Assembly (NCBI RefSeq): GCF_963675165.1
Contig: NC_087379.1
Span: 3,622,763-3,686,762 of the forward strand
DNA from: Halichondria panicea
Lineage: Eukaryota > Porifera > Demospongiae > Suberitida > Halichondriidae
Length of the DNA: 64,000 nt
Reading direction: 5' to 3'
The translations under genes and the position numbers were made by a program. Below, piece after piece: positions 3,001-60,600 of this stretch; within the stretch, counting starts at the first letter, position 1; every line of letters begins with the position of its first letter. Below the pieces are notes generated by a model that saw only the letters and a program-made list of their open reading frames with translations, had not been told where the DNA came from and did not search any database.

Positions 3001-3226
3001 GCCTTTGGAGTTGTTTGGAGTCAGCTCGGAATTAGCCTCGAGACCAGGCCTCTTGAGAAGAGGGCCTGGTACCTATTGCATGGGTGATAGTGCACATGCG
3101 CAAACTGAGTCTCCCAGAATATGGGGATTCGTTTACCTTAGTAAACTATCGTAAACTTATACCGTAAACTAGTTTTTACTGGGAAATCTATTCCGTGATA
3201 TTGTACTAGATCTCTAGCTCTATGCA
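1..3226. other. Noncoding A+T-rich region with dense short tandem duplications
   Basis: No convincing gene was found. The longest open frame (105 codons, 1263-1580, +) has no recognisable motif and no clear exon context. The region is marked by at least 13 short two- or three-copy tandem duplications with units of 12-22 bp. Positions 2160-2230 share words with the reverse complement of 17780-17895 (for example GTGGGTGTGGTTT and GAAGGAGCGTGGCTT), so a dispersed repeat is present at both sites. Confidence 0.6.
179..2878. repeat. Cluster of short direct tandem duplications
   Basis: Directly visible duplications (position, unit length): 179-212 (17 bp), 235-278 (22), 602-629 (14), 841-870 (15), 871-894 (12), 953-984 (16), 1748-1779 (16), 1921-1948 (14), 2058-2108 (17, three copies), 2405-2438 (17), 2504-2537 (17), 2794-2825 (16) and 2845-2878 (17). 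Copies are identical or nearly so, and the unit sequences are unrelated to each other. This argues for a mutational or assembly process, not one repeat family. Confidence 0.9.
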
Positions 3227-4165
3227 ATGGCGTCAACCGAGTTTTGTCAAGCTGTGGCTTATGCCCTAAATTGTGTTGGTCAAGAAGGCCTCACACTGAA
3301 GTCGAAGCAAGAAGAGGCTCTCATCCACCTCTACGATGGTCGGGATGTGTTTGCTTGGTTCCCTACAGGCTATGGCAAGTCTCTCTGTTTCCAACTTCTG
3401 CCCTTCATGTTTGACTTCAAACTAAAGCGGACAGGCTGTCAAGAGTTGAGAGAAGTGTTGTGCTGGTGCTGTCACCACTAGTTTCTTTGATGGTAGACCA
3501 GGTGTCAGGCCTGCAGAAGAGGGGTGTCTCTGCTGCTATACTCTCTGGCAACAAAGGTAAGCAGCTAGAACAGCCATAATACTCAGACTTCTTTTGATTG
3601 ACAGAGTACATATAGAAGGTAATGGCTCTATGATCTAGAAAGATAGCTAGAAACTGATGTGAACACCGTTTAATATAGCATGTACATGTCCAGTCTGTAT
3701 AATTACAGTTGGATAGCCACCGTACCTACTTGTACGTGTTTTAGTTAAATATGCATTTCGCATTACATCATAATATTGAACAGGAAGAAATTTGTTAGAA
3801 AGTTCTAGTTTCTTTAGCTCACTTTTTTTGGGAGCGGTGCGATCATTTCAAAGAGAAAGAGAGGTAGTAAAAACATCTAACTCTTCATGATTGTAATGGT
3901 ACAACTCCTAGCTCTTGAAGGTAAGTAGGGGAAAAGATATTCTTTCTTGAGTATTGTATACTGTACTTTGTGGTTTTGTACTAGTGTTTTTGTAGCTGTG
4001 CAAAAACCCAGTTCCCAGTAATTTTAGCAGGTCATGTTTGTCAGGCTTAGACAGCATAGGAATACATTTTATAATTTGTGATCTAATACGCATAAAAAGT
4101 TATACCTTCATAAAAAGTAGGTGTGTAATTGCTCATTTTGTATGTACAGAGTTCCACGATTCGTA

Positions 4166-7500: not shown

Positions 7501-9362
7501 ATGCTTAGCGGTGTTGTTTCAGTACTCTGTACATGGGTGTAGATTGTATTGGAACTTTCCTCGCTTGCCGATAGGGCTCTGATCGCTCCTGTTCTGCTCC
7601 TTCTAAGTTTTTTCGGTTGAGGGGACTTAATTGGTGATCTTGTTGAATATACTCTCTTTGTGAGCATGCGGTTCCCAATTAAGTCTGTATTGGTAGTTAG
7701 TGTTAGTGGCTTGGGTTGGGCGATTTGTACTGTTGTGCCATGCCAACTTAACTGCTGTTTTCCACAATATACTCTGGCATAATGGTGTATATAGTCAATA
7801 TTATCGGCTGATGCGATCATAAAACAGTTACTTGGGTAGCTTTTCATTATTCCCTCACTCGCTCGTTTCTCAATACGGTATTGAACATACCTCAAAGCAG
7901 TTTCAGAGCTTGCACAAATGCCTAAGCGATTGAACATCCTAACCAAGCGTATAGAGCCTCCACATGTTTCAATTGCTTCTGTCAATAGGGTATGTATTGG
8001 GAAGGAACACTGGTTGTTGATAGTGAAAAACAGTACACACACACAAAAGAACCTCCGAATAGTTCGTACTTGTGACGTGTTCTTTATGGCTTTCTTTGAG
8101 AGAGGTTTGGTTAGCAATGAAATAGCTCTCCAAATGTCTGGATCAAGTTTATTAATGAACTTGTTAATGTCAATGCTCTCTATATTATGTGGCTGTCCAG
8201 AATCTTGTTCAATCAATTCATTAATTGACTTGTGACATTTTTCATTTAGAGTGAGGCATACCTCAGACAATTTGTCTTTTGTTTCGTGACGTCTGCAGTG
8301 ACCTAGAGCAACACTGAGGGCATAGAAAATGTCTCCTCCATGGCGGTACAGAATCGTACCTATCCTCATCACTGAGCATTTGTAAGCCATATGATGTTCT
8401 AGCATATTTGAGAGCTCACTTCTTAGCCAAATTGAGTTTGGAAAGTCAACAGTGATGTTCATCTCTGAAGCCATTTTTGATAGTTTAATCTTAAATGTCT
8501 CATACACTTCAGGCAATAACAGAGCTGTTTGTTTCAAAATCGCTTTGCCAACATGTATGGCTGACAGACTAGATACGTATGATAGGACCTCATCCGATGT
8601 TCTGACATTAGATAATATGGGTATATCGGATTCAATCTTATCAAGTAGCAATTGAAGGTCAGAGTCTGTGCTTTTGACTGACCCCTTTAGTCGCTTCAGT
8701 AAATAGAGATGGGATTTGTAGCACGTAAAACACACTCGGTCACTAGATGATATGCTCTCATTACTACTAGTGACAGTGTTCTCTGAGAGGAACGCCTCTA
8801 TTATGTCAGGCTCTGAGACAACTCGGCTTTTTGTAAAGTCTGATATGTGTTTACTACACGTTTTGCATTTGAGGTGGGACGGGTTCAATTTTCGATATAG
8901 GACGCCGTAGTGGTATGTACAAAGAGGTATGCCATCAGTACCTCTTGGTGTTTCAATGCGTTCTATATTCATATCAAACAATGAGCATATTGTTGCTCTA
9001 TCAGCTAATGTGGTACTTTTGCATTCACATTCATTGCATTCTGAAACATAACACTGTTGCTCTTTTTCATTCTCATCATTTATTTTTCTCCATCTAGGTA
9101 CAAAACTACTCTCGCCAATGGAACTCACATCTTGCCGGCAATTTCTGCAAATGCAGCTATCTGGATTGATGCCAAGAGCTGGTTCAAATTCTTGAAGCTT
9201 CTTGAGAAGTGAGCCATCCTTCCATGACTTTGGATGGAAATACTTCGACATATTACCTCGTTTGCAGAGGATGCATGGTTGACAAGGCTGCCCTTGGTGA
9301 ACACTTGAAATAGCGGGTCGCACATCAGCTCCGCTCCCTCTTGTGGCTCTATGCTGACTCAT
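4521..9362 (-). CDS. Giant transposon-type ORF, 1613 aa (zinc clusters, possible nuclease motifs)
   Basis: A single uninterrupted 4.8-kb frame in a window where most other frames are broken. The N-terminus has cysteine clusters (PCILCKRG at about residues 29-36, CICRNC near 70-75) and further Cys pairs to about residue 220. Around residues 515-545 there is ADNIDYIHHYARVYCGKQQ, and near 745 PFPGDWHILKN. An Asp block followed by GDWH is a pattern seen in transposase-like RNase H folds. Near 1365-1395 there is AEESDTRIWLH, followed by SPDTDVYHVGLPLV, resembling the acidic clusters of PIN/FEN-type nucleases. I chose Met at 9362 as the start because no better upstream frame is contiguous, but a minus-strand open frame at 9470-9688 could be an upstream exon. 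The ORF ends early at a 10-bp tandem duplication just before the CXC ORF. It is probably a mobile-element protein; the biochemical role is inferred. Confidence 0.7.
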   Translation of the reverse strand: MSQHRATRGSGADVRPAISSVHQGQPCQPCILCKRGNMSKYFHPKSWKDGSLLKKLQEFEPALGINPDSCICRNCRQDVSSIGESSFVPRWRKINDENEKEQQCYVSECNECECKSTTLADRATICSLFDMNIERIETPRGTDGIPLCTYHYGVLYRKLNPSHLKCKTCSKHISDFTKSRVVSEPDIIEAFLSENTVTSSNESISSSDRVCFTCYKSHLYLLKRLKGSVKSTDSDLQLLLDKIESDIPILSNVRTSDEVLSYVSSLSAIHVGKAILKQTALLLPEVYETFKIKLSKMASEMNITVDFPNSIWLRSELSNMLEHHMAYKCSVMRIGTILYRHGGDIFYALSVALGHCRRHETKDKLSEVCLTLNEKCHKSINELIEQDSGQPHNIESIDINKFINKLDPDIWRAISLLTKPLSKKAIKNTSQVRTIRRFFCVCVLFFTINNQCSFPIHTLLTEAIETCGGSIRLVRMFNRLGICASSETALRYVQYRIEKRASEGIMKSYPSNCFMIASADNIDYIHHYARVYCGKQQLSWHGTTVQIAQPKPLTLTTNTDLIGNRMLTKRVYSTRSPIKSPQPKKLRRSRTGAIRALSASEESSNTIYTHVQSTETTPLSMNDFGLKLNEESALKKFQNIAGNYILLKVACTAHATPLIDFQAYFSLSSNICSVERSNIIYYNVLDQKCDDNETVLSIINDLYNKFIATKKQALIFLEGDQVTYARIQSLKAEYGSDLAWLIPFPGDWHILKNYQEVLVKIYFDAGLVDIGKCSGYNTPNSITSNFKRTHHFLMEAWESMYRLLFSIFLEKGNVPTDFLHTASEMVQNLPPSETQESALRNINQLLEDLQEKCNVLQLFDEYIQKRESENKTVKFWIEFIFRTCVGYIALYCAVRTGQWDLRMAAIKLMVPIFTAFDRPRYQQLIPQHIRDMYNLPGDVRANLEKGGFTVSLLGRPGHSIGIDEAHEMCINRECKEFVSRPSAETITRISLFLPIRAEAMKNIEQQLFKKQKIDITPIKSLYATSNDNESRKLEGNIKKQVNKLESCSLVTSTCNDALCHLFNKKQLTPQQEHDLINFRSIGETEYRNRVQYYILKTPSVKPPKHRKRLLTFTEKLGRRKKGSEIERERKIQIELWKRRVAHATITGTNLSKSYEQCLELPRAIANIDGTPTKGAKSNTTNVLQKRYEKANAAIIASSLKPGWIPDAVIIEGMFLINITPWSAHKNIGDYADFLIRQHIYPYFRSRSQEVHLLFDDPECVQLSPKYFERLHRDKTAHLNDDHQCTTFAADMVIPPMWRKNILSCRLCKRNLVTFLSTYFLKKVQRKLALQQKFVTAGGFSSNLQNKCLFVTGSTPQPQVDDSLYCNAEESDTRIWLHVINSVGTRKLVLSPDTDVYHVGLPLVAGTQLECNVRLSLFNSTEHRFLDIQALLTAFENDPSLAAIEQLPAVMQMLYISTGCDFVSFFNGIGKATFMATLFEYSQFICDSTAQTPGMLSQPDADGFLSFIRLVGCAYFRKHKSVFLPSFPTPMSLFNSLLDSKQHAQVHHSAWLSLMREKIWLRIKYEEEMIPSYDALDRHWKRSCWVQCVWSQATSNNITYPVLDGNGWKRMETG
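4529..4553. repeat. 10-bp tandem duplication that splits the giant ORF
   Basis: GTTTCCATCC is present twice in tandem plus a partial third copy. The ten-base length shifts the minus-strand frame exactly between the 1613-aa ORF and the CXC ORF. Confidence 0.85.
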
Positions 9363-9469
9363 TAATGACCTATTTTAATGCATTTGACATGCCATAATTT
9401 TGCATAATTTGTTTCAATTCACCTTGTAAATAATAATAATTATTCTCAGCAAAGTTGATTCAGTGGACC

Positions 9470-11418: not shown

Positions 11419-11661
11419 ATTCTCATAGCGGTTTCGCTCCTTGTGTATTCTTTAGCCTTCCTCTTGATCCATGTGCTCATTTTTTTCTCTGTTTAATTGT
11501 TGCAGGGGGTCTGGGGAGAATTTAGGGAACATTCTGTGAGACCGGTTCACAATAACGCTGAGGACCTCAGCCTTCTGAAGCACAGCTACAACTGTCTTGA
11601 CGTCCTTCTCATCTGACCTCGTGCTGTGAGCTGTTGCTTCACGGTGGATGTTAGTCTGCTT

Positions 11662-11695
11662 GTCAAAGGCCATGGAGAGTCAAAGGCCATGGAGA
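11662..11695. repeat. 17-bp tandem duplication breaking the DUF6589-like frame
   Basis: GTCAAAGGCCATGGAGA is present twice in tandem. The minus-strand frame carrying SLHRISMAFD changes exactly here to the frame carrying KQTNIHREATAH. Confidence 0.85.
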
Positions 11696-12840
11696 TTCGA
11701 TGAAGAGACGATACGGATCGTGCTGCCCAAGTGCTGGCAGTCTTCGTAAAGTTGGCACCCATGTTCGAGATGATGTTCTTGTAAAGCTTGTTTATGTGCT
11801 CATTGTGGAGATCACATGGGATGTTCCGTCCTAGGCCGCCATGAGTGTTGATGAAGCGGCCCCAGGTCAGCTGATGAGAGAGGTATGGCTGGAGAGTGGC
11901 AAGTTGAAATTGAAGCCTAAGTGCCTCTAGTGCATATTTTGTCTTTTTCTCAGCATGAAAGTGGAGCATTAAAATCTTCCACAGCCTAATAACACGCTCA
12001 CCGTCTCCTTCTTTCCAGGCATCCACAAACAGCAGTACTAAGGAGGCGAAATGACATAGCACTCGAGCATACCCGTGCACTTTATCTCCACTGTCTATCA
12101 CAGACTCTCCAAGCAGCGCCTCAGGGATCACTGTGAACTCCTTCACCACTGTCTGGGCCACACTACTCAGCAGAGATTGGTTTACCTCTTTGTGTCCTAT
12201 GGTGTATGTTAATGTAAGTGTTATTTTATCGGTATGCTGTGTAAGCAATAATTATGTTACCTTCAATGTCAAATTCCTTACAGCCTGCTGTCACTATGTG
12301 CCCCTTGAAGACTTTGAGGAAGGCAGCTTGACATGTGTGCATGTCATTCTTCGGTTTCTTCGCCTTGGAGCATCCAATGCGAGCAAAAAGACTGCTGAGA
12401 GTGCCGTAATCTTCTTGGCTGTCCTTGTGCAGCTTCTGCCAGATGAGCTACATGTAAAAAGGTAACATATATAATATGCTTGCGTGCTTCATGTACATTG
12501 TACATATCTGGAGTGCATGAATACACTCCTGTTAGTATATACACTGGCATATAATACTGTACACACGAAGTCAATTAAGTTACTGTAATTATATGTATTA
12601 TGGTGGGCTTTTAATAATAATTTATCACATGTACTTTAAACTTACAATCATAAAGTTCATCACACAATGCCAGCCATCAATGCATGGCTCAAGTTGTTCA
12701 ATCCTCCCTCCAGGAGTATTGGAGCACTGCACATGACGTTTGGCACCCTGCTCTCGCTCACATGTGAGGTGATCACCCCCAGACAGGGCCGTGTGCTTGT
12801 GGTCTGATCCCAGGTACGACACCATTGTTCTCATTATTTC

Positions 12841-18235: not shown

Positions 18236-18785
18236 CCATCTCTGACACCATGTAAAGTATTGTATCTCTTAGTGGAACACAAATCATAAGATAAGCCATG
18301 TGCCTGATCCATGATAAGATACAATAATAATAATACTACAGGTAATGTGTAATGTTACAAGGACCATTGCTCCTGTGCAGAGAAGTAGACATTCTAACGT
18401 GTACATATTAAATTTATCGTATTAAACAGGTTGTAGTGTCATGATCCTGTTCGAGCTGATGATAGCTCACATTCTTCACTTGATCCACCACATAAAGAAA
18501 TGACTTGATAGACTTGATAGAACCACACAAAAATATCTAACCTTGAATAAGCTCTTCACTTGTTCTTCTGTCTTCAGAATAAGCTTCAGCAATAATGATA
18601 AACGGGATACTAACGGTTCATACACAAACGAGAATATACTACTAGCTAGAATTGGGCTAATTGGTTGACGCATGCGCAGACAACTAGTACCAGGCCTGCC
18701 TAACCGTTATAAAAGCTGTGGTATATGTAGGGGGTTATGTTAGGTGTTGAAAAGTTACTAGCAAACATAAGTGTTATGGTAATTG

Positions 18786-19321
18786 TGTGTAGTGTGCGTG
18801 TGCCCCCTGTTTGTCCGTCTGCATGTGTGTGAGTGTGTGCGTTGTGTGTGCCCCTGTGTTGTGTGCCGTGTGTGAGTGCGTGTGTGTGAGTGTGTGTATG
18901 TGTGTGTCCCCTGTGTGTGTGCCGTGCATGTGTGTGTGTGTGTGTCTGTCTGTGTGTGTGTGTGTGTGCGTGTGTGTGTGTGTGCGTGCGCGCGCATGTG
19001 AGTGTGGGTGTGTGTGTGAGTGTGAGTGAGTGTGAGTGCGTGTGTGTGAGAGTGTGTGTATGTGTGTGTGTGTGTATGTGTGTGTGTATGTGCCGTGCGT
19101 GTGTGTGTGTGTGTGTGTGCGTGCGCGCGCGTGTGAGTGTGTGGTGTGTGTGTGTGTGTACGTGCGCGCGCGTGTGAGTGTGTGGTGTGTGTGTGTGTGT
19201 ACGTGCGTGTGAGTGTGTGAGTGTAAGTGTGTGTGTGTGTGCCGTGCGTGTGTGTGCCTCTGTGTGTGTGTGTGTGTGTCTCTGTGTGTGTGTGCGTGTG
19301 CGTGTCCCTGTGTGTGTGTGC

Positions 19322-19363
<42 letters not shown>

Positions 19364-19757
19364 TGTGTGTGTGTGTGTGTGCCCCTGTGTGTGTGTGTGT
19401 GTGCGTGGTGTGTGTGTGTGAGTGTGAGGTGTGCCGGGTGTGTGTGTGTGTGCCCCTGTGTGTGTGTGTGTGTGTGTGTCCCTGTGTGTGTGCGTGTGTG
19501 TGCGTGTGAGTGTGAGTGTGTGTGTGTGCCGTGCGTGTGTGGTGTGTGTGTGAGTGTGAGTGTGTGTGTGTGCCGTGCGTGTGTGTGTGTCCCTGTGTGT
19601 GTGTGGTGTGTGTGCCCCCTGTGTTGTGTGCCCCGTGTGTGTGTGTGTGGTGTGTGTGCCCCCTGTGTTGTGTGCCCCGTGTGTGTGTGTGTGTGCATGC
19701 GCTTGCGCGTGTATGTGACCCTGTGTTGTGTGAGTGTGTCCCCCCTGAGTGTGCGTG

Positions 19758-19789
<32 letters not shown>

Positions 19790-20198
19790 GCCCTTGTGTG
19801 TGAAACCCTGTGTTGTGTGCCCCGTGTAAGTGCGTGTGTGGTGTGCGTGTGTCCCCCCTGAGTGTGCGTGTGTGTGTGTGTGCTGTGTGGGTGTGTGTGT
19901 GGCCCTTGTGTGTGATGTTTCTGTGTGCCTGTGTTTGTGGTGTGCCTGTGTTTGTGCCCCGTGTAAGTGTGTGTGGTGTGCGTGTGAGTGTGTGTGTGGC
20001 CCTTGTGTGTGATGTTTCTATGTTTCTGTGTGCCTGTGTTTGTGCCCTGTGTAAGTGTGTGTGTGGTGTGCGTGTGAGTGTGTCCCCCCTGAGTGTGCGT
20101 GTGTGTGATGTTTCTGTGTGTGCCCCGTGTGTGTGTGTGCATGCGCTTGCGCGTGTATGTGACCCTGTGTTGTGTGCGTGTGAGTGTGTCCCCCCCGA

Positions 20199-20231
<33 letters not shown>

Positions 20232-20533
20232 GCTGTGGCCCTTGTGTGTGAAACCCTGTGTTGTGTGCCCCGTGTAAGTGCGTGTGTGGTGTGCGTGTGC
20301 TGTGTGGGTGTGTGTGTGGCCCTTGTGTGTGATGTTTCTGTGTGCCTGTGTTTGTGCCCCGTGTAACCCGTGTAAGTGTGTGTGTGGTGTGCGTGTGTGT
20401 GGTGTGCGTGTGTGCGTGTGAGTGTGTGTGCTGTGTGGGTGTGTGTGTGGCCCGGCCCTTGTGTGTGATGTTTCTGTGTGTGCGTGTGTGTGCCCCCTGT
20501 GTTGTGTGCCCCGTGTAAGTGTGTGTGTGGGGT
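18786..20533. repeat. GT-rich satellite of about 1.75 kb
   Basis: Almost pure TG/CG/AG dinucleotide sequence on the plus strand, with higher-order words that recur (GTGTGATGTTTCTGTGTG, CCCCTGTGTTGTGTGCCCCG, GTGTCCCCCCTGAGTGTGCG). Later parts (19600-20530) show irregular higher-order units of about 100-250 bp. Alternating purine-pyrimidine runs such as GTGCGTGCGCGCGCATGTG favour Z-DNA. Long open frames on both strands are Cys/Val or His/Thr repeats and are not genes. Confidence 0.95.
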
Positions 20534-21252
20534 AGTGTACAGCAATATACATTTTTGTAGACTTGATATGTACATCATAGTTTACAGAGATATACAAATA
20601 GGGTTAGTTTACATGCAAGTAAACTGTGGCACGAAGACTACAAGGTAGATTCCCAAACAGTAAACTTGTTATTTGATGTACATGATTGTAAACTGGGCAC
20701 ATCTAGTTTACAGCAAGTTTTCAGCAAGTTTACAATGCAAATGAATTGGTGACTTTCACTGGGTGTTTTACATTTATCTATAATTATGTGTATAGTTACG
20801 TATGCGTCTGCGCTTGATGAATTGTTTACGACAAAAAGTATATACACAGGGAAAATATTGAAATTTCCTGCTACAGTGCTGCTACAGTGCAGCCCTTAAG
20901 ATCTGCGCATTTCCTGAAAAATGGCAGGTGTCCTGCAAGTGTCCTGCAACCTACTTACAAAGGATAGTGCAACGTTTCCTTTCCTGAAGAAGTTCAGGAC
21001 ATGTGTACGATTCATATAGGAAAGTCTACAGGAAATGTTGTACTATCCTGAAAGTATAGGAAATTTAGATATTTTTCCTGTGATAAAGATGATCAATGAT
21101 CTACATGGATTAACATTATAAAAATTAACTGAGATAATGAGAGCTACTTTTGTTGCTTGTGGCAGGTAGCATTCACAATCTTTTAGTCCAATCTGGGTGT
21201 GGCGAAAATTGCATGCTGGTAATTCATTCACAAAAGAATCGTATATATCAAA
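20534..21252. other. AGTTTACA-rich flank and noncoding sequence
   Basis: 20560-20735 contains many AGTTTACA or GTAAACT words and the motif TGTACATCATAGT, which also occurs beside the second GT block (about 29231-29243). 20860-21070 is rich in TTCCTG repeats. No gene is seen. Confidence 0.6.
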
Positions 21253-23587: not shown

Positions 23588-25172
23588 GTTATATTTAGCT
23601 TAGATTAATAATTAATTTTGTGATTAATATTTACCCTTTTGCACATGACTCATTAATAAAATTGCAAGTGATCCATGCCATGAATTCATTATGGGACGAT
23701 GCAAAGAAAATTACACCATTGCATGTACGTGCCGTGCGTATATATATATACATGTGAAAATAAAATTCAGTTGGACAATAGTGACACTACCAGTACCCTT
23801 TGTGTTCCTATTACTCTACCAAAGTCAATGTCTGTTTCACAAAAAGCCACTCTTTTCTTTATACTAGATAATCGAACATATTCAGATGTAGACAATGATC
23901 TAGCCCAAACTTGAGTAGGACCTCCAAACCAGACTTTGCAATTATGCTCATCGTAAAAAGTGACGTAAGCAATCCATTCAGACAAAACTTGGAAACTTGT
24001 ACATTGAGATGCACCGGAATATGCTTTTATGTTGATCTTGCAAAAACGTTCAATTCTTGCTAGATGAAGCTGATCTGGATAGCTAGGGTGACAAGCCATC
24101 ACATGAGACTTTGTGACATAGCGACTGTTTGCAGAGCCAAGCACGAATCCATCTATTGTGAGACTCGCTGTGCTTTCATATAAGGACAAAAGAGCGCAAT
24201 TGTTGTGACCTACAGCTACCGACATTATAATACGATCTAACATATCTTTCTGATATGATTCCCATGCATTTTCGATAATAGGGAATAACGGTTTAATGGT
24301 GACCGATCGAATCGAGAATGTTGTGTTTGAGCCTGTGCTTGCTCCAAAGAACAAGCTTGCAGGGAGCCTTTATCGTAGGTGTGATGAACTAGTAGTGGAT
24401 AGAATTCTTCCCTGAACTCAATTGGCCAATTTTCGGCACCATAGTATTGGCCTGACATAAAACGTCGCATGAGCTGAAGTGATATGTTCTTACAGTTTGT
24501 GTGGTATGAGCCTAGCACCCCATTAAGACGCTCAAAGCTGAATAGCCAAAAAGAATAAACAGGGCCAAAGTCTAAAACACACTCCATCAGATGGGCGTGG
24601 AGGTGCATGTTGATCGTGTAGTTTCTTTGTCCATAAAGTTGTTCAAATAGTTTACAAAAATCCATCAACAAAGAATCACCCTTCTCTAAGTTACGTAGAG
24701 TAATTTGGCGTTGACATACTATGTCAACAGCTTTAACAAACAGCAACCAACAGTCATAGTCTTTGTGAGGAATTACTCCTTTCAAAGAGCACAGTGAATA
24801 GATAAGAGTCCAATTTCGCCATTGATCGGCTGTGAAACTTTAAAAACCCGAAGCAATCTTTGAAGGAATACGGCCAATTTCAGGGGGTGTAACAAATCTA
24901 TCAACCTTCTCTTGTATACTCAAATAATGTGTCTTGTCTAGTATACCAAGTGACGTCCAGACAGATAGAACATGCTTTGCTGTGCCTAACAACAAATTGT
25001 GCATCGGATCTATAACTGAGAACCTAACAACGTAACAACGTCAAAGTATGGTAATTCAAGTAGAACGGAGTATCTACATCCATGCTCTGTTTCTATTAGC
25101 TTCTGTTGTGCTTTTGTTATTGCTTCTTTATGAGCTTGTGCCTGATCACGATGTGAGATTGTGGAGCGTTTA

Positions 25173-36234: not shown

Positions 36235-36660
36235 TGCCTCGGTGGAGATGCCAAAGCTACATAACATAAAGCTACTAATAGCTTACTGCGCAAACTCAAA
36301 GAGTGGGTAATGATCGGCCATGATTGTTGTTAAAAATGATCGATGCCAAAAGTTCAAGTCGGCTGCCATCAGCAGAGCCTTGCAACTCTCTTCTCACTCT
36401 TGCAGCTGCCAATAGCTAGCGTTCTAGTGCAGAGCTAACTACTAAGTAGAGTAGTATTAACACTCGGTAAACAAGAATGGCAAGCAAAACTAGGCATAAC
36501 TTGAGAACGAAGCATTATTTTGCAAATACACGAATTAAAATCCAAGAAAAAGAAAACTCTTACTTGCACTTGCACTTGATTCATCCTTGAGCAGCTGTAG
36601 CAGTCTACACAGACACAAACATACTACCGTATACCTCGCTTGCGCATCCGCACCGAAGCA
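36235..36660 (-). mobile_element. TGCCTCGGTG MITE, copy A
   Basis: Short inverted ends TGCCTCGGTG (36235-36244) and CACCGAAGCA (36651-36660). The reverse complement matches copy B at 53488-53846 in order: GCGAGGTATACGGTAGT, GTGTAGACTG.TACAGCTGCT, GCAAGTAAGAGTTT, GTAGCTTTGGCA. Noncoding. Confidence 0.7.
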
Positions 36661-37275
36661 TAATTATGGTAGATGCATGTAGTAGGTCTCAGTGAATGTC
36701 TCGTCTCTTATATGCATGTAGATTGATTGAACGGTATACAATGTACACGTAATATCTACATAATATCTACATATTCATTGAAGAAGCAGCTTACCAATGA
36801 ACTTGATGTTCATACACAGCTTTCAGATCCTCCCTACACCACGGTAGTTTCACTTGGAATTTTAGTTATTGCGTTGCACGGCTACGTGACGTCACAACCC
36901 CAATTTCTTGGTGCGGCAAGATGCTAGCGACAGAGTGGCACTGTTGTGGGCTTTAAACCTGCTACATGCCACCTCAGCCTTAGATTATCACAGCCTGAAT
37001 AGCTGAATAGTTCTTTGTTCTGATCCTTGCACCACCAGGCCCCAGCCAGCTCAGGTAAATGAACCACATAAATGCTGTGGATAGTGCAATTTTCCAAGAT
37101 CAGGCACAGTGTCTTAGCTATAGATATAAATCTTCATATTCTTGCTGCGTTGAATGGTTCTTGAGAAAAACATATTTGCAAAGTATCACCACTTGACCAA
37201 TTACCCAATTACCACAAAGCTAGCTAGCTAGCTCCAGCTGCACTGCTGCACAGTCAAGAAGTATAAGTACTAGCA
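36661..37275. other. Noncoding stretch upstream of the RAG1-like gene
   Basis: No gene is seen. CACAGTG occurs near 37087 but is not paired with a convincing second terminus, so it was not called a Transib-type end. Confidence 0.4.
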
Positions 37276-37785
37276 ATGGAGGAGCATGTCAAGTGTCTAG
37301 CAAAACTTTGTAGAGTGTGCTCTAAGAATATAACCGAAGAAAGAAATCTATTGCAGAATTTAAAGATTGATCCGGAATTGGAACACAACAGCTCCCCGGT
37401 TTTGCAACAGGTGCTACAAGTGCAATTGAGCAAGATGGCACAAAATCATCTTTACGAGTAACATTTTGGAAACAACATAGTAACGAACAATGTGAGACAT
37501 GTGCTAGATTTGTACAGAGTTGCCGAGCGGGGAGAAAGCCTAAGGTTCGGAAGGGGGGGGAAACATGACAGCATTACTAATGGGCATATGCTCCAGTCGA
37601 TTCACTCCATGAAATTAATGCCCCAACTTTCAACGTCCCAGTCGAGGTTCAGTGACACACCACCCCCAATCCAGCTCTGCCAATCTTGTGACAACATTTT
37701 GGACGAGCCTGTGGAAACAAAGTGTAGACACAGTATATGTAAACGCCCAGTGTGCTCTGAAAATTTCTAAATCTATCGGATGTCA

Positions 37786-37807
37786 GACCCTTTCCCGACC
37801 CTTTCCC
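37786..37807. repeat. 11-bp tandem duplication in the RAG1-like RING region
   Basis: GACCCTTTCCC is repeated in tandem. The upstream frame reads IGCQTLSRP and the downstream frame reads TLSRGTFKNF, so the shared peptide TLSR marks the duplication-induced shift. Confidence 0.85.
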
Positions 37808-40196
37808 GAGGCACTTTCAAGAATTTTAGGTTACACTGTGACCATCCCAAGTGCAAGGCTGTCGTACCTTTGACTAGTCTCCGTGACCATGTGACCAGAT
37901 GCTCTCCAACCCTGGCAAGACAGGTGTTAATGATTCAAACTCCGTCTCCACAGTCCACCCCCGGTCCTAGTAACCAGTCCACACCCAGTGTCACACCCAG
38001 TGGTGGCCGTCCAGAAACCCCTCTCACCCGGTCTCGCTCCAGTCCATTCTCGAGTCACCACTTGACAGAACCCCAACAAAAGCAGTTGCGTCGCGAAGAT
38101 TGTTGCACAAGAGCGAGTTACCAACAGGGGGACAGGTAAGGGAAATGTATCTTATATTTTCACACCAAAATTTACGTACCTAGCCCATTTGCTTGAGTCG
38201 GATTCGTAAACCTCGGAAAGACTCCTTGTCTACCTGCACCAGAACTCTAGGAAAGAGTCAGAGTCATGGGTGATTCTTCAGCTAAGAGACAGCTGGAGGA
38301 TGAATTTCGTAGAACTTCCCCAGAGGCTAGACAGCAAATCCTCAGAAATGCCAAGATCACTGAGACCACCGTGTCACCTGAAGAGGTTTTAGCTATGAAA
38401 GCTGATCTCTCAGTATACCATGGAATAAGCTAAGACATCTTAAACGGTAAGTCAAATAGACAATCCAATCAAATAGACAATACAATAATTATACGTATGT
38501 ACGTACATGAAGGTGGATATGCCATTGGGGGAAAAGGCTATCAAGTGAGGCCAAGCAGCGAAAACTCATTAAGAATATCATACCTGTTGACATCCTAGCT
38601 GAGGAGGCCATGTTTACTTTCAACAGAACAGGGGGAGGGTTTGAGATTCGTGGTGCTGCTTATGCCCAAGTCCCTGACATCAGCAAGTTAGTGATTTGGT
38701 TGTTGGATTCCAACCAGAGGTAATTAGTACTCGTTTCAAGCTTGACATTTCACAATTAGTTGCACTCGACTGACGTGGCACAACGGATTGATCCCAGATG
38801 ATGAATGAAGTTTGGGTTAAGGTTGGAGGAGACAAAGGTGGTGGGACATTTAAGATGTCCCTGCAGCTTGCAAACGTAGCTCACCCTAACTCAATCAACA
38901 ACACATTTGTGTTTGCCTGCTTTGAGGCTAACGATTCTGTCACGAATCTTCACGATAGTCTCGATGGGTACAGAGACCAAGTCCCAAGTCGAGGCCCTCA
39001 TGGCATTGACATGGCAGTAAGTACCACAATGAAGGTGATAACCAACAAAGTACAATTGATTTTTCAGGGACAGTGTTTTTTTGTTTGGGGACTACGAGTT
39101 CCAGTGCAGAATATACGGACTTTCAGGGGCAGCTGGTCAGTTAAGCACAAATGTTCTTTAAGTGTTCAGTTCGATCTTACATGTCGACATTGTTGCTTGT
39201 GGTGCCATGTCACATCCACTGAGATGCAGCTATCACCATCCAGTCCAACGAAGCGGAATCAGAGCTCCCCTCCCCTCGTACACTAGACATCGATCACACA
39301 AAGTTTATTCAGAAGGGTGGTGGGAACCTGAAGAAAGCGAAAGAGTACAACAATGTAATTTAGATCAGGTAAGTAAACAAAACCTTAAATTGTCAAAATA
39401 GAGATTATCAATGGAAAATTCTTTATTAGGGTGTGTCTACCAAGCCTACACATCAGTTTAGGTGTTTTTCTTAAGCTTTTCACCTTGTTTGAGGAGGATG
39501 TCCATCACTTGGACGTGCTGATAGCTCTTCAGCAACGCTCACATGGTCATGCCGGAGGCATAGGTTTCCAGAAGCACATCGACAACCTGCACATTGACAA
39601 CCTCCGCATGGACAACCTCCGAGAAATGGATACGCTGTATCATGAGGCCGACGAACTGGAAGATGAAGCAGACTTCTTCGACGATCTTGCGATCTGGACA
39701 ACTCTCGATCATGAAGCAGTGATCAACTTGAGTCCCTGCGAGAGCAAGCAAGAGATTGTAGAAGGAGAGCTGCAGATTTAGTAAGCTATATTATATTTTC
39801 TTTGTAATGAGTAATTATAATTATACTTATGGCCAAAAAACCAAAGTGCCCTTTGACAAGCAAGACAGTCCATGCAATCGGGGTATTGAGAAGGTGCTTA
39901 AAACCATAGGTGTCGAACGACAGGCCTATTATTCCGGGACATTTGTTGTCCATACTTGTCTAAAGGTATATGTAACTTACGTTGTGATAATAATTATAGC
40001 AACCCAACATCGGCCTCATTACATCATCCATCATCGAGACAACTATGATCCACTGTCCGCTATTAGCAGACGACTCTGAGGTGATAGCAGAAAGATTTGT
40101 TTGCAAATTGCCACAACTGTATTAGAAGAGAGCGAAGTGTCACAGTTAGGTATGCACATTTACATTATACGTGAAACAACTATGGGACATTTTGCA

Positions 40197-40226
40197 GAGA
40201 ACAGCATTAAAGAGAACAGCATTAAA
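40197..40226. repeat. 15-bp in-frame tandem duplication in the RAG1-like core
   Basis: GAGAACAGCATTAAA is present twice, giving ENSIKENSIK. Being a multiple of three, it leaves the frame open. Confidence 0.85.
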
Positions 40227-40380
40227 GACTTTATGAAGGCTTACCGAATGGCTAATAAGAGAGTCACTCCCAAGCTTCATATGCTGGAGGACAACATAGT
40301 GCCATGGATCAGGAGATGGGGTGTGGGAGTAGGCTTCCACTCAGAGCAAGGGGCAGAATCCATCCACACCCAAGTCTAGT

Positions 40381-43300
40381 CTACGCCAACATCTGTCCTT
40401 CTCTTGATTGTAGGTATCCTAGCCCTGAAATTTTCAGGGCAGTTCTTCAGATAATGTTCTTTCATCACTCTCTCGAGCCTTTGAGTTGGATTGCGGGTGC
40501 TGGCATAAATGTTTGGCTATGGCCGGCCGGCTATTATATAATTATTACAGTTGAGGTGCTAGCTCTACCCTCTCAACAGAAAAGTGTCTTACTGTGCTGA
40601 GTCTTTAGCTAGCTAGCTACTATAAGTTCCCTAGCTTTCAACTGGTACATGGTATAGTATACTGGGCACTCACACACACTGGTAGCAAAATTCTATGATG
40701 TATAAAACTCAACGCAGCAGCTGCCTTTCTTCTTCTCTTTACAACATCCTCTCTGCTCCAGAAAATTGTTGAACTCGCAGTGCAGTCTTTTGAAAACTGC
40801 CACCCTACCAAAGCGTAACTTTTCAACCGCTCACAGGGTGAGCGTCAAACTTGGACCAAAGAAGAGAGCTCCTCTCGTCTTGTTGTTGTTCAATGTTTTT
40901 GTGCTGATATCAGCAATACTGAATGATTTGCACGTACTCAATTAGGGCTACCCCCAGGAAATACCAGTCAAAAATTAAAAATTTATTGCGCATGCTCAGA
41001 ACTAAAAGTCATTGTAATGAAACCATCGTGACACATGTTGGCCTCAGGGTAATGCCAGGAGGGAGACCAATCACATGTTCAGGTTTGAGAAGCTTATATG
41101 GCACTCTTGTTTGAGATTCACCAACAGCATTAAAAATAATTATGATCATGAGTATAATTATATACCTGCTTGGAAACAACTCATAAAACTCACAATATTT
41201 GGCACGACTGAACGCAACTCTTTCATGCTTGAAGGCTGGGGTTAGCACTGATATAATAACAGGAACACACCTGGTTTAGTTGAGGATGTGGGATTGGTCT
41301 CCAAGAATTTACAACCACTCTGAGTACCTGTCATTGAACGTCACGTGTACTCCAAACTTCTCAGCCCAGTCACATCAGCCCAGTCACAGTCACACAAAAA
41401 CAAAAACAAAAACAAGTATATACAATGGACTTGTAGTAGTCTCTGAAATAAATATGTAACAGAAACCATATATAACGTATCAACCGTATGTATACGCGTA
41501 TCAATTGTGGATATACATGTATGCGCTCACAGTACATAGGCAAAAGTAAGCCATTGTTACAGTGATCAATCTTACATGTACATTCTTGCAGGTTGCTCAA
41601 AATTCTTTGAGTTTCGTGCCAAAGTGTGTGGATTCTCCACCATCGGCCATTTGTTTGTACTTCCCACTTCCCTTTCTCTTCACCAGTCATCTGCTTCCAC
41701 TTTTCAGCAGCCAAGCGGTTCTTCTACCCCAGGTCAGAGAGTGCCTGCAATTAAGTGAGTGTGATGATATCACCGTACTAAACCACAAAGCACGATAGCA
41801 ATAATAATTAATCATTGGCTAACTATAGCTACTTAAAGCCCAGTGTATAAGTAGCATCAAGATACGCCCTTGGTAGCATATATCTAACTGGAGGAAAATT
41901 GAGCCAGACGGTTATCCATGTATCCATGTATAAATATAATTATGTGTAATACCCGAAGTATACACATGTTGGAATTTCAACAGCAATTAATTCGCCATGG
42001 ACGTAAACTTTAAGATGTATCTAAACTATAACGGCAAGGAAAAGACATGTGAAATGTTATAATAGCTATATATAGGGTTGACCTTATGAGATTCTGTATC
42101 ATAATAGCGAATGCGTGGGTGAATGCTCACTGATTTTATACTACATCTACACAGCTAAAAAGAAGCTAGACCCTTGTTGGCAAGAGTAGGATAGATGGGT
42201 GGGCCTTCGGGCATCAGGAAGGCTGGAGGAAGGGTGGGGCAAACTACAAGCTGTACGGACAAGCTTGCTGTTTGTTTTCAATAGTTTATTCCAGTGGGTA
42301 TAATTATGGGTATAATTATGACACGTATTGTCCACGTATTGTCCACTATCGAATTTATGCCATCATTGGCCGCCTCGCGCCCTCGTCCTCGGCTGATGTA
42401 GTTATAATTATTATCATGACGACTCCTTACCAAATCATGCCTTGAGGCGAGGCGATGCGACCGTGTAATAAAAATATAACACGAAAGGGACTGTATGACT
42501 TTTATTACACCCTTGTAATTTTAACAACGTGCAGGCATAGCGTAGGAATATGTTTTAGGGGGGGTCTCACTTATTGGGACAAGCACTGCAAGAGGGGCTC
42601 CAGCCCCTGGAGCCCCCTGCTGTATAAATATTTGTAACACCAGTTTAAGACATGTATGAGCCATGGAGGGGCCAGCGGAATCTTCATGAAAAAATTTATA
42701 AAGGTAACACGTACCTACAATTATAATTGTAACAATTGGGAGACCTCAGCTTCTGTGGAGGTTTTTTCGGCATGGGTTTTTCTGTGTCATTGCTCTGGCA
42801 CCTCTTCCTCTTATTTCCTATCCAATTCTATAATGGGGCCATAATGGGGCCATATGCATGCATTGTTCAAAATATAATTATTTCGAGTACATGTAGGAAC
42901 TAAGGGTAGAGGAATGGGGGGGGGGCAACATCACACGGTTACCTCCACTCTATATCAATGCACAGCAACGTGGGGTATATCTTTCTCCAGTGAGATACCG
43001 TAATTAATGTTGTACACTGTTTATAGAACCCCTCAAATTAGTGTCTATAGTGCAGGCTTTTAGTACGCAGGTGGATCTACGTTTGATTTTTGGTATCTGT
43101 ATGCATCTAGACAGTTATAATGCATCCACATACATGTAATAATGTTCTAGTAAAAGGTAAAGTGCTTGGTATATTAAAAGCACCGTAACAAATTAATTAC
43201 AGCAACCAGTTGGTGCTTTTTTAGTTCTAAAATTGTGTTCAGTCTGGTTAAGGTTATGTTCAATGTTCAATCTGCATAGGTACGGTAGTTACATACCAAC

Positions 43301-54892: not shown

Positions 54893-56033
54893 TTACCAGT
54901 GCTTTTCAAAAAAGGGCATACAAATCTTGTAGTCCCTGTGGTCAGTGTCATCTTTAAATAACCGATGAAAGAGGAGCCCAACCTGCTTCCAATCTAAATT
55001 TTTAGCAGTCCACTGATTTGATACAAATCTAGGCAAGCGGTACATTTCATTTTCAGGTTCGTTCGAGGTGTCACTACAGAACTCGCTTGATATGATCAGT
55101 GCACCTGTGTCCGCACGAATGCTTCTGTCTAAGTCTATTAGAACCAAAGTGGTCCAATCCACTGCCACACAAACATGTTTAGTTGATGAAGCTCTTCGAT
55201 GATTTGCACTAAAACTTCTAAGTACCAATACACTTTTTTTTTTATTTCGTTAGGCACGAGCGGTGGTAAGTACATTTGGTACCTGAAGTAGGTAAACGGG
55301 TTAGTTCCACAGGAAATGGGAAACCCGATTGACTTGGATCTCCACCCTTCATTTAACAGAACGAACAATCTCGATACCTCCGCCTGACCAGCTGCTGAGT
55401 TGAATTCACGATGACGACACTCTGGCCAGACATGATTTGTTTTGCTCCAGCCCCAAATGTCCCAGTGATGTTGTTTGGGCATACTGGGTAAGCAAAGAGG
55501 AAACGTTTTGATTCATCCCATCTCTTGTCCCAAAGAGTTTTATTCTTTAAATAGACGCGTTTGAGAGAGGCATGAAGGTCACAAGGGACATGATCCTCGA
55601 TGAATTTCATATGATGATAATTCCATGTCACCGTGACCAAGAGAACGCATTGAATACTCCCATACGGAAAGTAAAACCCTTGAAGGGATTTTTCTTGGAT
55701 ACACCGGTTTCTCAGTGATGACAGCATTTGTGCTAAGTGAATGGCTAGCTTTAGAGTAGTGTCCTTGTATGATTCGACCTCGCATATAAAAAATGTTGCT
55801 CCAGTTTCATCTTTAATTGTTACGTCCGGAAATCTTCGGGTTTTAACCGGCATTGCGTTGATGTCTGGCAATAGTTTCAAAGCTTTGCCCACTAGAACTT
55901 TGACTTTCAAAGCTTTTGATATGTAATCACCAGCTCTAGTTTCGCTTGTAAGATTCACAGATACCTTCAAGCCGTCATCCAAGGCATCCAAACAGTAGAG
56001 TGTAGGGGGGGGTTGGACATTTCTGTCAATCAA
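54893..56033 (-). pseudogene. Nuclease-kinase protein (Crinkler-like), frame-broken
   Basis: The N-terminal part (56033-55353) contains RFPDVTIKDETGATFFICEV and then ES, a D...E-x-E pattern of PD-(D/E)XK nucleases, followed by AIHLAQMLSSLRNRC. The next frame (55482-55138) contains FVLLNEGWRSKSIGFP and EVLVQIIEELHQLN, as just before a kinase catalytic loop. The last frame (55228-54893) resumes at AVDWTTLVLIDLDRSI, where LIDLDRS would replace DFG, and ends CMPFFEKHW. The HxDxxxxN loop expected between them is missing, so a deletion has occurred. A restriction-like nuclease joined to a kinase-like domain recalls Crinkler-type effectors that are expanded in some animals. Assignment is by motif only. 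Confidence 0.4.
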
Positions 56034-56536
56034 ATGTTTTAATGCTGACGTACTAAATGACGTACTAAATGGCGACTTTGATAAAGTGCTGGCCGAAGGG
56101 AGAATTGGTATGATGGCACTCGAAATCGAATTCCTGGATAATTCTATGAAGGAAATAATGAGTGGTGGTTATTATAAGCACGAGGTTCTTAATTAGGCAC
56201 CTAACACTTTGTGAGCGAAGCAACACACTGCTCCATGCCCACTCGTTTTATTTACCAGTACAGTACGAGCATATCTAGTGATAGAACACTAGCTAAGTTG
56301 TGTTTACCCCTATGGCGCTGAAGAGTCCAGCCATCTTCTTCTTTGGAGTTTCTTCGTAGCCCCGAGACGGTAGATTTCCTGCCTAAATTTAAATTAAGTC
56401 ATTTGACTTAACAAATTCCACAGAGGCAATACTTGCATTTCATTGGGTTAAAAATCACATTACAGTCTCTAGACCTAATCCTAGCTCTACTTGATTTTGA
56501 TATTAGGCCATACCAAGTTAATGTTTAATGGTTTTA
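56034..56536. other. Noncoding stretch
   Basis: No gene is seen. The sequence carries a short duplication (GACGTACTAAAT near 56048-56070) and ends at the TA flank of the pogo-like transposon. Confidence 0.5.
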
Positions 56537-57185: not shown

Positions 57186-57656
57186 AGGCATTGGAACGGA
57201 GAATATAATTTCAAATTCAAGCCTAGAGCTTTGTAATAGGCCATATGTGTAGTTTAGCCTGTAAAGGGGCATGTGATTGGCATGCCAGCACACCTAAGGC
57301 CAGGCACGTGTGTAAAAGTATGCCCCTTGAATAGAAATATAGTGCTAGCTATTCTGCACATACATTTAAACGTACACAGTCTCATGCCCAGCCACTTTAC
57401 CTGTGGTAGGCTAATTGCAAGAACCTGCTGTTGTGGGTATAAGGCACAGGATACAAAGTATTCCTTTGGTTTTTAATATGCATATTTTTGTTGTTTGCAG
57501 TTGTTTGATGGCTCAGCTCAGCTTGAATGACCGTGTGTTTGTCGCACGAAGAACTTTTACTCTCTCGCCACCGCGATAGTCAACCTCTTACAAGTCATGG
57601 ACTGAAAGTACCCTCTATAAAGTATACTTAGCACATATTGAAGATGGGCTCTCAGT

Positions 57657-60600
57657 TTGGGGCGAGAAGTGGCCCACCAAAGCTCCTCACTGATGAGGAA
57701 GAGAATGAACTTGTTAGTTTTCTCTGTGGTTGGTTGTGCATCAATGGGCTATGCAAAATCCAAACAGGAAGTTTTGGCACTGGTTCGTAACATTGTTCAA
57801 ACAAAAGGACTTCGAACTGCCGTAGTCACTGATGGGTGGTGGACCTCGTTTAAGAAGAGGCATGGTGAACTAGCTGTACGTGCTGCAGAGCCATTATCAT
57901 ACTCAAGGGCTGTAGCAAGTTCTCCCCAAGTACTTTCTTGCTATTATGACTTGTTGGAGCAGACGCTGACAGAGAATGATTTACTCGATTGCCCATCCCA
58001 AATCTACAACATGGACGAAACAGGCATGCCCCTCGACCCTGCACCTCCAAAAATCATCACTGTCAGAGGTGTAAAACACCCAATAAAAATCTCAACCGGA
58101 AATAAAGCACAGCTTACATGTGTTTCAGCTGTCAGTGCAACAGGTCAAATCATTCCTCCTATGATTATATTTGACAGAATGAACATTAAAACAGCTTGGA
58201 CTTATGGAGAAGTACCAGGAACTAGGTATGGAACATCAAAAAATGGATGGATTGATAGTGTGTTGTTTGAAGACTGGTTTAAGTGCCAATTTTTGCCTAA
58301 TGCATCTCCAGTGCGTCCTGTGTTGTTAATAATGGATGGCCATTCTACCCATTACCAGCCGAGTACTGTGAGACTTGCAGCTTCGGAGCAGGTAATACTC
58401 TTCTGTCTCCCGCCGAATACAACGCATTTAACACAACCCCTTGATAAGGGCTGTTTTGGGCCACTGAAGCGTGCCTGGAGGAAGGACTGGAGGAAGGAAT
58501 GTCATAGTTATATGGCACAAAGTGGTGGAAAAATGGTGACCCGATACGAGTTTTCTCGGCTGTTCAACAAAGCATGGTTTGCATCAATGACCCCCCCAGC
58601 TAATGCCATAAGTGGATTTCGATGCACAGGCATAGTCCCTTTTAATCGAGAGGCAATTAGGCTACCTGTTGCTGATTTTAAGGATCGGGTTTCAAGCTTG
58701 GCACAGGAAACAGGCCTTAATTTCATACCACTCTACAACTGCAGTCCATCAAGATCTATACATCTAAATGATGCAAGTGTTGAAGAAACAGACTCTTCTG
58801 ATGGTGACTCCCCTGCTAAGAGTCCTGCTAAAAACAGCTGTGTTCTACGACAGACTGCTGTTACGAAATGTCTTTCTGCAGTGACGGTGCCTGAGTTGCA
58901 CACCCAACAAGCTAAGCCAGTTGGCAGTGGACGGGTGCTAACAAGTTCTGAAAATCTGAAGATTATTAACCAAAAGGAACAAATGAAGCTTGAGAAGGAA
59001 CTTAAGAAGAAACAAGCTCAGCAGAAGAGACTTCAGAAGCAAGAAGCAAAGAAACAGAAACAGAAGCAAACTCTCACACCCGCAAGGTTGCCCAAAGAAT
59101 CGACTAACTGTGAGTCAAAGTACTGTTATGTTTGGTCGTATAATTATAGCTTATAATTATTTATGCAGCTGTTCCTGAGAGTGATGTTGTCTTCACCGAC
59201 AACGAGTGGGACCGTTTTGAAACGAGGCTGCTTGAAGGCTATGATCTTGCACCAAAGGGAAGGTATAAACTATGGCTTGAAATGTATCATCCACAAGGTG
59301 GGTTTTGTGTGTTACATGTGGAACGTTACATTCGTTCTCTAGAGTGTACAGTACGTGTACACACATTTTTGTTTCATACATGTAGCTGGTGGTACCTGTA
59401 ACAAACAAACTGACGAGCGTGAGTCGGATTTAGAAGTGTCTCCTCAACCAGGTACTTACATGTACAATACACTTCATTATACACTTTACGTAATATTTGT
59501 TTCCTGCTTTTGAAGATGCTGATGATTCAGAAGGTAGAAGATCGTTCGGACCAGGTACATGTACATATTATATGTGCTGTATTGGATATTTGCGAACACA
59601 ATAATGACTGGTTTTTTTTATTACTGTAGATGATTATTGTGATCCTATTGTGGATGCCCTTTTTGATAGTTGGTGCTATTCAGGAGATGAATCTATTGGA
59701 CCAGGTAAAGAATATAATATGTACTCATGATACAGCGTGTTTGATTTTCACTCTGTAATACAGTTGTGTACCCTATAATAACATGCTGCTTTGTTCAGAT
59801 CGTGAAACAGAGTCTGTGCCTGATACTACTGGCAGTTGTCTGCCGAGAGCTGGTGAGCTACAATGTAAATGTTTGCTGTACTATAATTGTACAAAGTTAC
59901 ATAATTAATTTATACAGTATGTTTATTAGAAACTTTTTTATTTCAGGCTCACAGGAAGTTACTCCACCTGTTCCTGGGAACAGTCAAGGTATATCTCACA
60001 CATGAATATGTGAATGAGTGTGCATACATGTACCATATACAGGTACAGTTGCATACATGATAAGCCAACATGATTCACACAGATCCGTTATCAGTAAAGA
60101 GCTGTAAATATAAACTGGTAAATTATTGGGTAGTTTTTGGAAAGTTCATTTTGCGCCATTTTAGTCTCGCAGAAAGTTTCACCACCTGGTCCTGTGAACA
60201 GTACAGAGTCTGTGTCCAACAAGAAGCTTCCCCCTCTTGGGCGCCCACGGAAAACTGGTACAGTATGTTTTGTATAATTTTACTGTGAGGGGACAAACTT
60301 ATAAATTTCATTTTTGCGTAGTCTCCCAGAAGGTTACTCCACCCATTAAAATAACTGTAAATAGTCAAGGTGTTTAAAAAATACATGCAGACGTTGTGGC
60401 TTTGAAAATTAACGTCTAATTAATTTATTTACGAGCTGAGAATAGTGGGTCAAGAGTTGAGGGTATATGTACATTTGATTTGTACTTACATGTAACCATT
60501 AGGCACTAAAATTTAATGGTACATAATCGCTACATGTACTTGTATAGCATGATCACATGTACTAGCTACATGTACGTGTATATGGATCGTATAGTGTAAT

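Follow-up and report, generated by a model that had tools for sequence, protein, structure and literature searches.

A probable dead Chapaev-type transposon with a RAG1-like layout in the sponge Halichondria panicea, and relatives with unequal, 12/23-like ends

Does a sponge genome carry a RAG1-like gene in which the N-terminal half and the catalytic core of the vertebrate recombinase are joined? The question is raised by a stretch of 64,000 nucleotides from Halichondria panicea (contig NC_087379.1, positions 3,622,763 to 3,686,762 of the forward strand), called the window below, in which an earlier note described positions 37276-40380 as a near full-length RAG1-like gene. We conclude, with a probability of roughly 80%, that this locus is a dead cut-and-paste transposon of the Chapaev type, that its transposase has the layout of RAG1, and that its sister copies have unequal ends which, as we infer, were paired short with long.

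The motifs that had been named in RAG1 order are present in the window, as seen both in pattern matches and in the matches of the exons of an intact relative (copy A, described below), which fall in order with a best E value of 1.6e-23 in a one-sequence tblastn. In the N-terminal half they start at 37309 (CRVC), 37467 (WKQHSNEQCETC), 37678 (CQSCDNILDEPVETKCRHSIC) and 37837 (the C2H2-like CDHPKCKAVVPLTSLRDHVTRC), and in the core at 38825 (GGDKGGG), 38885 (PNS), 39084 (FGDYEF), 39117 (GLSGAAG), 39191 (CCLWC), 39446 (LHISLG) and 40341 (SEQGAES); in the translation of 37276-40380 they are spread across all three forward frames. Nine of the 11 exons of copy A were traceable in order (exons 1-7, 9 and 11), and tblastn with the sister-copy exons gave E values of 0.1 or worse for exons 8 and 10. 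The GGDKGGG exon matched Pfam DUF1280 (E 1.5e-13), the RING half reached E 0.0078 with zf-C3HC4, which is under the cut-off, and the window's own N-terminal pieces gave no Pfam match to RAG1_imp_bd. Frame changes lie inside exons 2, 4 and 6, stops occur after the half RING and inside exon 2, the middle of exon 1 is unmatched and H(4)H has lost its second histidine (HMLEDN); for these reasons we regard this copy as dead.

The gene region lies within a larger unit, 36840-41030, which has inverted ends and is flanked by ACAC target duplications (Table 1). These ends were located by pairing candidate ends around the gene with a target duplication, followed by a shuffle test: using a score that combines the likeness of the ends to each other and to the family ends, the pair scored 37, compared with a maximum of 31 and a mean of 24.7 in 500 dinucleotide shuffles. 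They were found only in this way because fixed patterns failed in the window, where the 12-mer at 3 mismatches was rarer than chance (55 matches vs a mean of 73.7) and the 14-base inner block was absent; in an inverted-repeat search of 36500-41500 they were not among the longest 25 of 58 repeats. Terminal inverted repeats, which the earlier note had proposed to look for together with 5-bp duplications, are present, but the duplications are of 4 bp.

The search for other copies, also proposed there, was rewarded: the same genome (131 Mb, 39 contigs), which ten Wnt matches show to be that of an animal, yielded seven better-preserved relatives for closer study. Over two aligned stretches, copies A (contig C17) and B (contig C1) show 99.7% and 98.9% identity; both are bounded by CACAGG..CCTGTG, with the 4-bp duplications GCTG and ATGG. 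Their near identity, clean ends and different duplications suggest that they moved recently. Copy A has an unbroken gene model of 947 codons in 11 exons, covering 503-3919 of its 4393 bases. Its introns measure 47-67 bp, nine of them GT-AG and one GC-AG; the exons were placed by hand, from the genomic sequence alone. Ten pieces of this gene were sought in order in other copies, and all ten were found in L028 and L033, nine in L030 and L032 and eight in L027. Protein identity to copy A was 53-57% in the core (L028, L030, L032, L033) and 34-39% in the N-terminal half (aligned members). Some relatives are broken too, L027 having stops in exons 1-3 and copy B an interrupted first exon, and in L036 the gene pieces lie on both strands, which indicates an internal inversion. 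With the best 20 candidates scored at most, DUF1280 was found at at least 14 places in the genome (13 over cut-off) and RAG1_imp_bd at at least 19 (16 over cut-off); scored in the same way, neither gave a match in 14 control genomes, and the N-terminal alignment found no relative in viral contigs. L027 and L029 lie about 123 kb apart on C12 and have nearly identical core exons, L029 being without most of the 5' part. The tail of L030 holds about 1.7 kb of extra sequence with a DDE-like frame on the opposite strand; it is probably a nested element.

Judged by sequence, there is a true relationship between RAG1 and the N-terminal zinc-finger and RING half. A profile built from five of nine elements (L027, L029, L031 and L035 were left out because of stops or missing exons) matched chain 6oem_A, which we take to be mouse RAG1, over residues 101-377 with an E value of 9.7e-14, a region that covers the zinc fingers, the RING and the following finger. 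Pfam RAG1_imp_bd matched all five members at E<=1 (best 6e-12), and a RING model matched up to three of the five (best 1.1e-4). The product of the first exon of copy A matched the RAG1 N-terminal structure 21wb (E 2e-5) together with RING proteins, and the full copy A protein matched 21wb at 8e-4. Between the Chapa part and the RING, the aligned members have invariant GRP-K and GRP motifs. The printed RAG1 sequence compared here begins GGRPRQ, presumably the start of the nonamer-binding domain, and the likeness of the GRP motifs to it is our own reading.

The core, by contrast, is tied to RAG1 by a shared motif pattern, and homology is not proven by the present tests. The relatives carry the DDE, C(2)C, LH and H(4)H motifs (in copy A, GGD/SGD/GAES, CIWC, GLHISLG and HMLEKH), which are kept in the other members wherever these exons were read, except in L032. 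Conserved across six elements are G.KGGGSFKM, SGDYEF, GLSGA.G, C.WC, PK.H.LE and GLMGEQGAE.IH. The second aspartate lies 19 residues before the first cysteine of C(2)C, as in GYD...C..C of RAG1, whose aspartate we assume to be catalytic. Three results count against our reading here: a core profile, built without L027, L031 and L035 (again for stops or missing exons) from the remaining six of nine elements, with L029 entered as two pieces, retrieved neither a RAG1 nor a Transib chain at E<=10, its sole match was an unrelated repeat protein (E 0.029), and the score of the core-RAG1 profile alignment was equalled by 7 of 150 shuffles. Because neither the search nor the shuffles reached significance, we claim the pattern only; the alignment itself, in which PNS, C..C and LH fall in the expected register, was rejected as proof. 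To give a scale, a RAG1 core query found 6b40, which we take to be amphioxus RAG1L, at 3.7e-79, and the transposase 6pqn, presumably that of HzTransib, only at 0.01. The RAG1 core family gave no match in the whole genome, and none in the positive controls either. Of the proposed RAG1 layout along the whole length, the motif pattern and the relationship of the N-terminal half stand, but the core lacks a RAG1 or Transib match, and the locus is a broken transposon copy, not a RAG1 gene. In L032 (C1:8508000-8517999) the sequences GGEKGGG and HMLEKR replace the D and H of the other aligned copies; the first catalytic aspartate and one zinc ligand are changed, yet the ends keep the exact 12 and 23 spacing.

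An exact duplication of 4 bp, and not of 5 bp, was found in eight of nine elements tested, L036 failing; copies A and B, five more elements and the window copy all have exact 4-bp duplications. The script that found the five further elements and the window ends demanded a duplication of 3-5 bp. Among end pairs found by pattern without use of duplications, three of four also had exact 4-bp duplications: AACT on C4 (1.5 kb), ATTA on C17 (4.3 kb) and AGGT on C9 (15.9 kb). The C9 pair (C9:3241592-3257474), a short and a long end, is probably one element with a large insert. Chapaev elements are recognized by 3-4-bp duplications, by CAC/GTG termini and by the motifs C(2)C, LH and H(4)H (PMC4079192). 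All were found here, with DDE residues, a Chapa domain and a RING. The Chapa domain is described as a truncated N-terminal part of RAG1, and Chapaevs that unite Chapa domain, RING and transposase core are known, a union argued to be older than the split between Chapaev and Transib (PMC4411706). The suggestion that this locus would bear on when N-terminus and core were joined is therefore overtaken: because the union is already known for Chapaev, the window locus alone dates no new fusion. Chapaev, Transib and RAG1 have been placed in one group (PMC4411706, PMC12730594). The RING-bearing Chapaev subgroups (Kapitonov & Jurka 2007, as cited in PMC4411706 and PMC4079192) share with our elements the CAC..GTG ends, the 3-4-bp duplications, the C(2)C, LH and H(4)H motifs and the presence of Chapa domain, RING and DDE core in one protein. 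What sets our elements apart, as far as the descriptions in the excerpts of these two papers go, is their unequal bipartite ends, for which we met no counterpart there.

In the sister copies the terminal CAC box is followed by an inner box, CACTTAGTT. If the distance is measured from a 7-bp heptamer, in the way used for recombination signal sequences (RSSs), it is 12-13 bp at the 5' end but 23-24 bp at the 3' end. The ends of copy A read CACAGGTGTTTC, 8 nt, CACTTAGTT and CACAGGTGTTTC, 19 nt, CACTTAGTT. Between terminal and inner box there are 8 and 18 nt in L027, L028 and L030, 7 and 18 nt in L032, whose spacings are exactly 12 and 23, and 8 nt (with one mismatch in the box) and 18 nt in L033; in L036 the inner boxes stand at 21 and 31, and one end begins with AAC. 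All seven better-preserved elements and the window copy have CAC termini. Genome scans at 3 mismatches found 12 short-end and 17 long-end places, of which 9 and 17, respectively, start with CAC, and none for the reversed patterns. A free-spacing scan (TGTTTC, 2-30 nt, CACTTAGTT) gave 49 matches, 16 at 12-13, 26 at 23-24 and 7 elsewhere, compared with 20 for the reversed pattern. The 12/23 geometry, a CAC heptamer with a box at 12 at one end and at 23 at the other, within one base, is that of the sister copies and not of the window copy.

The spacing of these ends looks functional, because the inner box and its distance are kept while the 3' spacer has nearly, and the following 40 bp have fully, diverged. 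At the 3' end, L027, L028, L030, L032 and L033 (group 1) agree with copy A at 10 of 12 bases of the terminal box and at 9 of 9 of the inner box, with spacers of 18 and 19 nt, respectively. Without gaps those spacers agree at only 2-5 of 18 positions. When gaps are allowed, agreement rises to 11-12 of 19, mostly owing to the shifted CAATG discussed below, and 10-55 of 300 shuffles reach as much; the likeness of the 40 bp past the inner box does not exceed that of shuffles (46-271 of 300). At the 5' end conservation extends further, since the following 40 bp retain a likeness that only 0-19 of 300 shuffles match. The two ends of copy A have a 15-mer in common, offset by exactly 11 bp; in copy A, L027 and L032 the two longest blocks common to both ends are the terminal 12-13-mer, without shift, and a 10-15-mer shifted by 10-11, that is, by one helical turn. 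A single inner box is found per terminal 300 bp in four of seven copies and few extra sites in the others; a long array of subterminal repeats is thus absent.

Could the unequal ends nevertheless be neutral, an inherited 3' insertion of 10-11 bp or an arbitrary subterminal site as in CACTA elements, with the match to 12/23 a coincidence? We regard this as a real possibility, though not the one we favor. Several observations lean that way and weigh further on our own reading. All copies come from one genome and are related by descent, not independent; the 3' spacers share CAATG, shifted by one base, and so retain some common ancestry; an extra inner-box-like site occurs at 259-266 in three of seven copies (L030, L032, L033), and L030 has another 166 bp from the 3' end; and CACTTAGTT differs from the RSS nonamer ACAAAAACC. 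The window copy reads 12/15 instead of 12/23, its possible inner-box remnants standing at 20 (5') and 23 (3') and not at 31-32 as in its relatives; at its 5' end there is no inner box with one mismatch or fewer. This copy may have decayed or may belong to another subfamily. Also against our own reading, a facing pair on C1 (1.7 kb, both ends altered) has no duplication, and the duplication of L036 matches at only three of four bases. What tells against neutral ends is the invariant box and nearly invariant distance amid largely diverged sequence at the 3' end, the existence of five different long spacers of 18 nt, and the composition of the facing end pairs within 20 kb, nine of nine of which are heterotypic, with one short and one long end.

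It might also be asked whether the elements belong to the branch of RAG, ProtoRAG and Transib proper, as an ancient RAG1L that has lost RAG2L. The RAG1-like N-terminus with its RING, the CAC ends and a D-x18-C-x2-C spacing equal to that of RAG1 fit this, as does a 12/23-like geometry otherwise known from RSSs and some Transibs (PMC8355894). We consider it improbable nonetheless, since the duplications are of 4 bp, the 5-bp duplication expected of RAGL and Transib being absent from the elements and end pairs tested, and since the core profile misses RAG1, 6b40 and 6pqn where a RAG1 core query recovers 6b40. The whole-genome search for the RAG2 family gave nothing over cut-off and one sub-threshold match (E 0.75), so that no adjacent RAG2-like kelch gene of the RAGL kind was found; the control genomes gave none either. 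Transibs with 12/23 ends share the CAC heptamer and the spacing within one base (PMC8355894), but have 5-bp duplications and no N-terminal region, and the core here did not match the one solved Transib-type transposase at E<=10. ProtoRAG and RAGL elements share a RAG1-like protein, and the ProtoRAG ends are unequal too, at 27/31 (PMC8289069, PMC7204232), yet they have RAG2L, almost always 5-bp duplications, other spacings and a core unmatched here. N-RAG-TP of Aplysia californica is described as a transposon made up wholly of RAG1 N-terminal-like sequence (as cited in PMC8355894), whereas here that sequence shares one gene with a DDE core. The vertebrate system has in common with our elements the N-terminal zinc fingers and RING, the order of DDE and zinc motifs and the heptamer-to-box geometry, and differs in that ours are single-gene transposons with introns, with no RAG2 over cut-off and with CACTTAGTT in place of the nonamer. 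RAG1 itself is a domesticated transposon gene, and a host gene of like origin would accord with the lack of a close sister of the window copy, whose two nearest relatives, copies A and B, stand at 69% in a DNA search of the genome with the core exon. The stops, frame changes, lost zinc ligand and transposon ends with a target duplication make this very improbable. Least credible of all is a fusion of two unrelated elements by insertion, which had been named as one case that would overturn the earlier reading. The window motifs do lie in different frames, but the same order recurs in copy A and five further elements, each enclosed by a single pair of inverted ends. The joining of the halves is thus no accident, and the unbroken copy A gene with both halves refutes fusion for the family.

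If the Chapaev-type reading holds, the transposase would consist, in order, of Chapa/RAG1-importin-binding zinc fingers, a RING, a finger and a DDE core with C(2)C, LH and H(4)H. Two molecules would pair one short-spacer with one long-spacer end, like RAG with a 12-RSS and a 23-RSS; the inner box would be gripped by parts outside the core, be it the zinc fingers, the AT-hook-like GRP-K/GRP motifs or the pre-core region. The DDE center would nick next to CAC and release the element, which would then be joined to target sites staggered by 4 bp. That a Chapaev-type transposase with the full RAG1-like layout and no RAG2 actually enforces 12/23-type pairing of its ends is a tentative proposal, and we hold it to be rather doubtful.

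The 12/23 rule is central to the order of V(D)J recombination. Were pairing enforced here, it would work without recognizable RAG2, and the geometry would predate both RAG2 and the divergence of Chapaev from Transib and RAG, or else would have arisen twice from the same RAG1-type architecture. According to a 2021 review, the only other known 12/23 asymmetry is that of a few Transib transposons, the terminal inverted repeats of invertebrate RAG-like gene pairs do not follow 12/23, and mouse RAG1 alone is reported to show no 12/23 preference without RAG2 (PMC8355894). ProtoRAG is described as performing best with its own unequal pair of ends (PMC8289069). A related superfamily that combines this spacing with the layout of RAG1 N-terminus, RING and DDE core, but apparently has no RAG2, would allow a direct test of whether a RAG1-type transposase alone sets the spacing rule. 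Among the titles and abstract openings listed on Chapaev, sponges, Transib and RAG1, none describes such ends, although they may have been published before.

Table 1. Parts of the transposon copy in the window, with positions counted from the first base of the window.
Feature	Positions	Strand	Evidence
Left target-site duplication ACAC	36836..36839	.	Exact 4-bp match to 41031-41034; 5 bp mismatch
5' terminal inverted repeat CACGGTAGTTTCA, decayed	36840..36852	+	End-pair score vs shuffles
Possible inner-box remnant ATTTTAGTT, 5' end position 20, 3 mismatches to CACTTAGTT	36859..36867	+	Not significant alone
Exon 1 remnant (RAG1 importin-binding/Chapa region): start codon, CRVC, WKQHSNEQCETC motif; two frames, middle unmatched	37276..37559	+	tblastn E 0.008, 8e-4
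Half RING finger, then stop 37768-37770	37678..37767	+	zf-C3HC4 below cut-off
C2H2-like finger remnant	37837..37902	+	Pattern match; similar finger in L028, L030, L033
Exon 2 remnant, linker towards core; frame change, stop	38184..38439	+	tblastn E 8e-5
Exon 3 remnant	38511..38714	+	tblastn E 6.5e-7
Exon 4 remnant, first catalytic Asp motif GGDKGGG; frame change	38767..38983	+	tblastn E 1.3e-4, 1.6e-23
Exon 5 remnant, second catalytic Asp motif FGDYEF and GLSGAAG	39078..39137	+	tblastn E 4.6e-9
Exon 6 remnant, C(2)C motif CCLWC; internal frame change	39185..39360	+	tblastn E 3e-6, 7e-5
Exon 7 remnant with LHISLG	39431..39550	+	tblastn E 1.2e-11
Exon 9 remnant	39852..39965	+	tblastn E 5.9e-8
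Last-exon remnant: HMLEDN, SEQGAES (catalytic Glu), stop 40377-40379	40212..40379	+	tblastn E 2.8e-16
Possible inner-box remnant CTTTTAGTT, 3' end position 23, 2 mismatches	41000..41008	-	Read from ends
3' terminal inverted repeat CACGATGGTTTCA, read inward	41018..41030	-	End pairing, shuffle test
Right target-site duplication ACAC	41031..41034	.	Matches 36836-36839

Elsewhere in the window, an open frame of 1617 aa with a cysteine-rich N-terminus (4521-9374, minus strand) and a second piece (11586-12251, minus strand) both match Pfam DUF6589 and possibly represent another mobile-element family. Two overlapping frames at 23767-24839 (minus strand), the second with a weak match to DUF4218 below the cut-off, resemble the remnant of a CACTA transposase. 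A 271-aa open frame at 55353-56168 (minus strand) has no Pfam match at E<=0.01, and one of 504 aa at 57642-59156 (plus strand) matches the DDE_1 endonuclease (E 5e-25) and is, in our judgment of its appearance, pogo-like. Finally, a CA-type tandem repeat of about 1.9 kb, open in several frames, lies at 18700-20603, and a similar CA repeat interrupts a copy of the transposon on C10 (L010).

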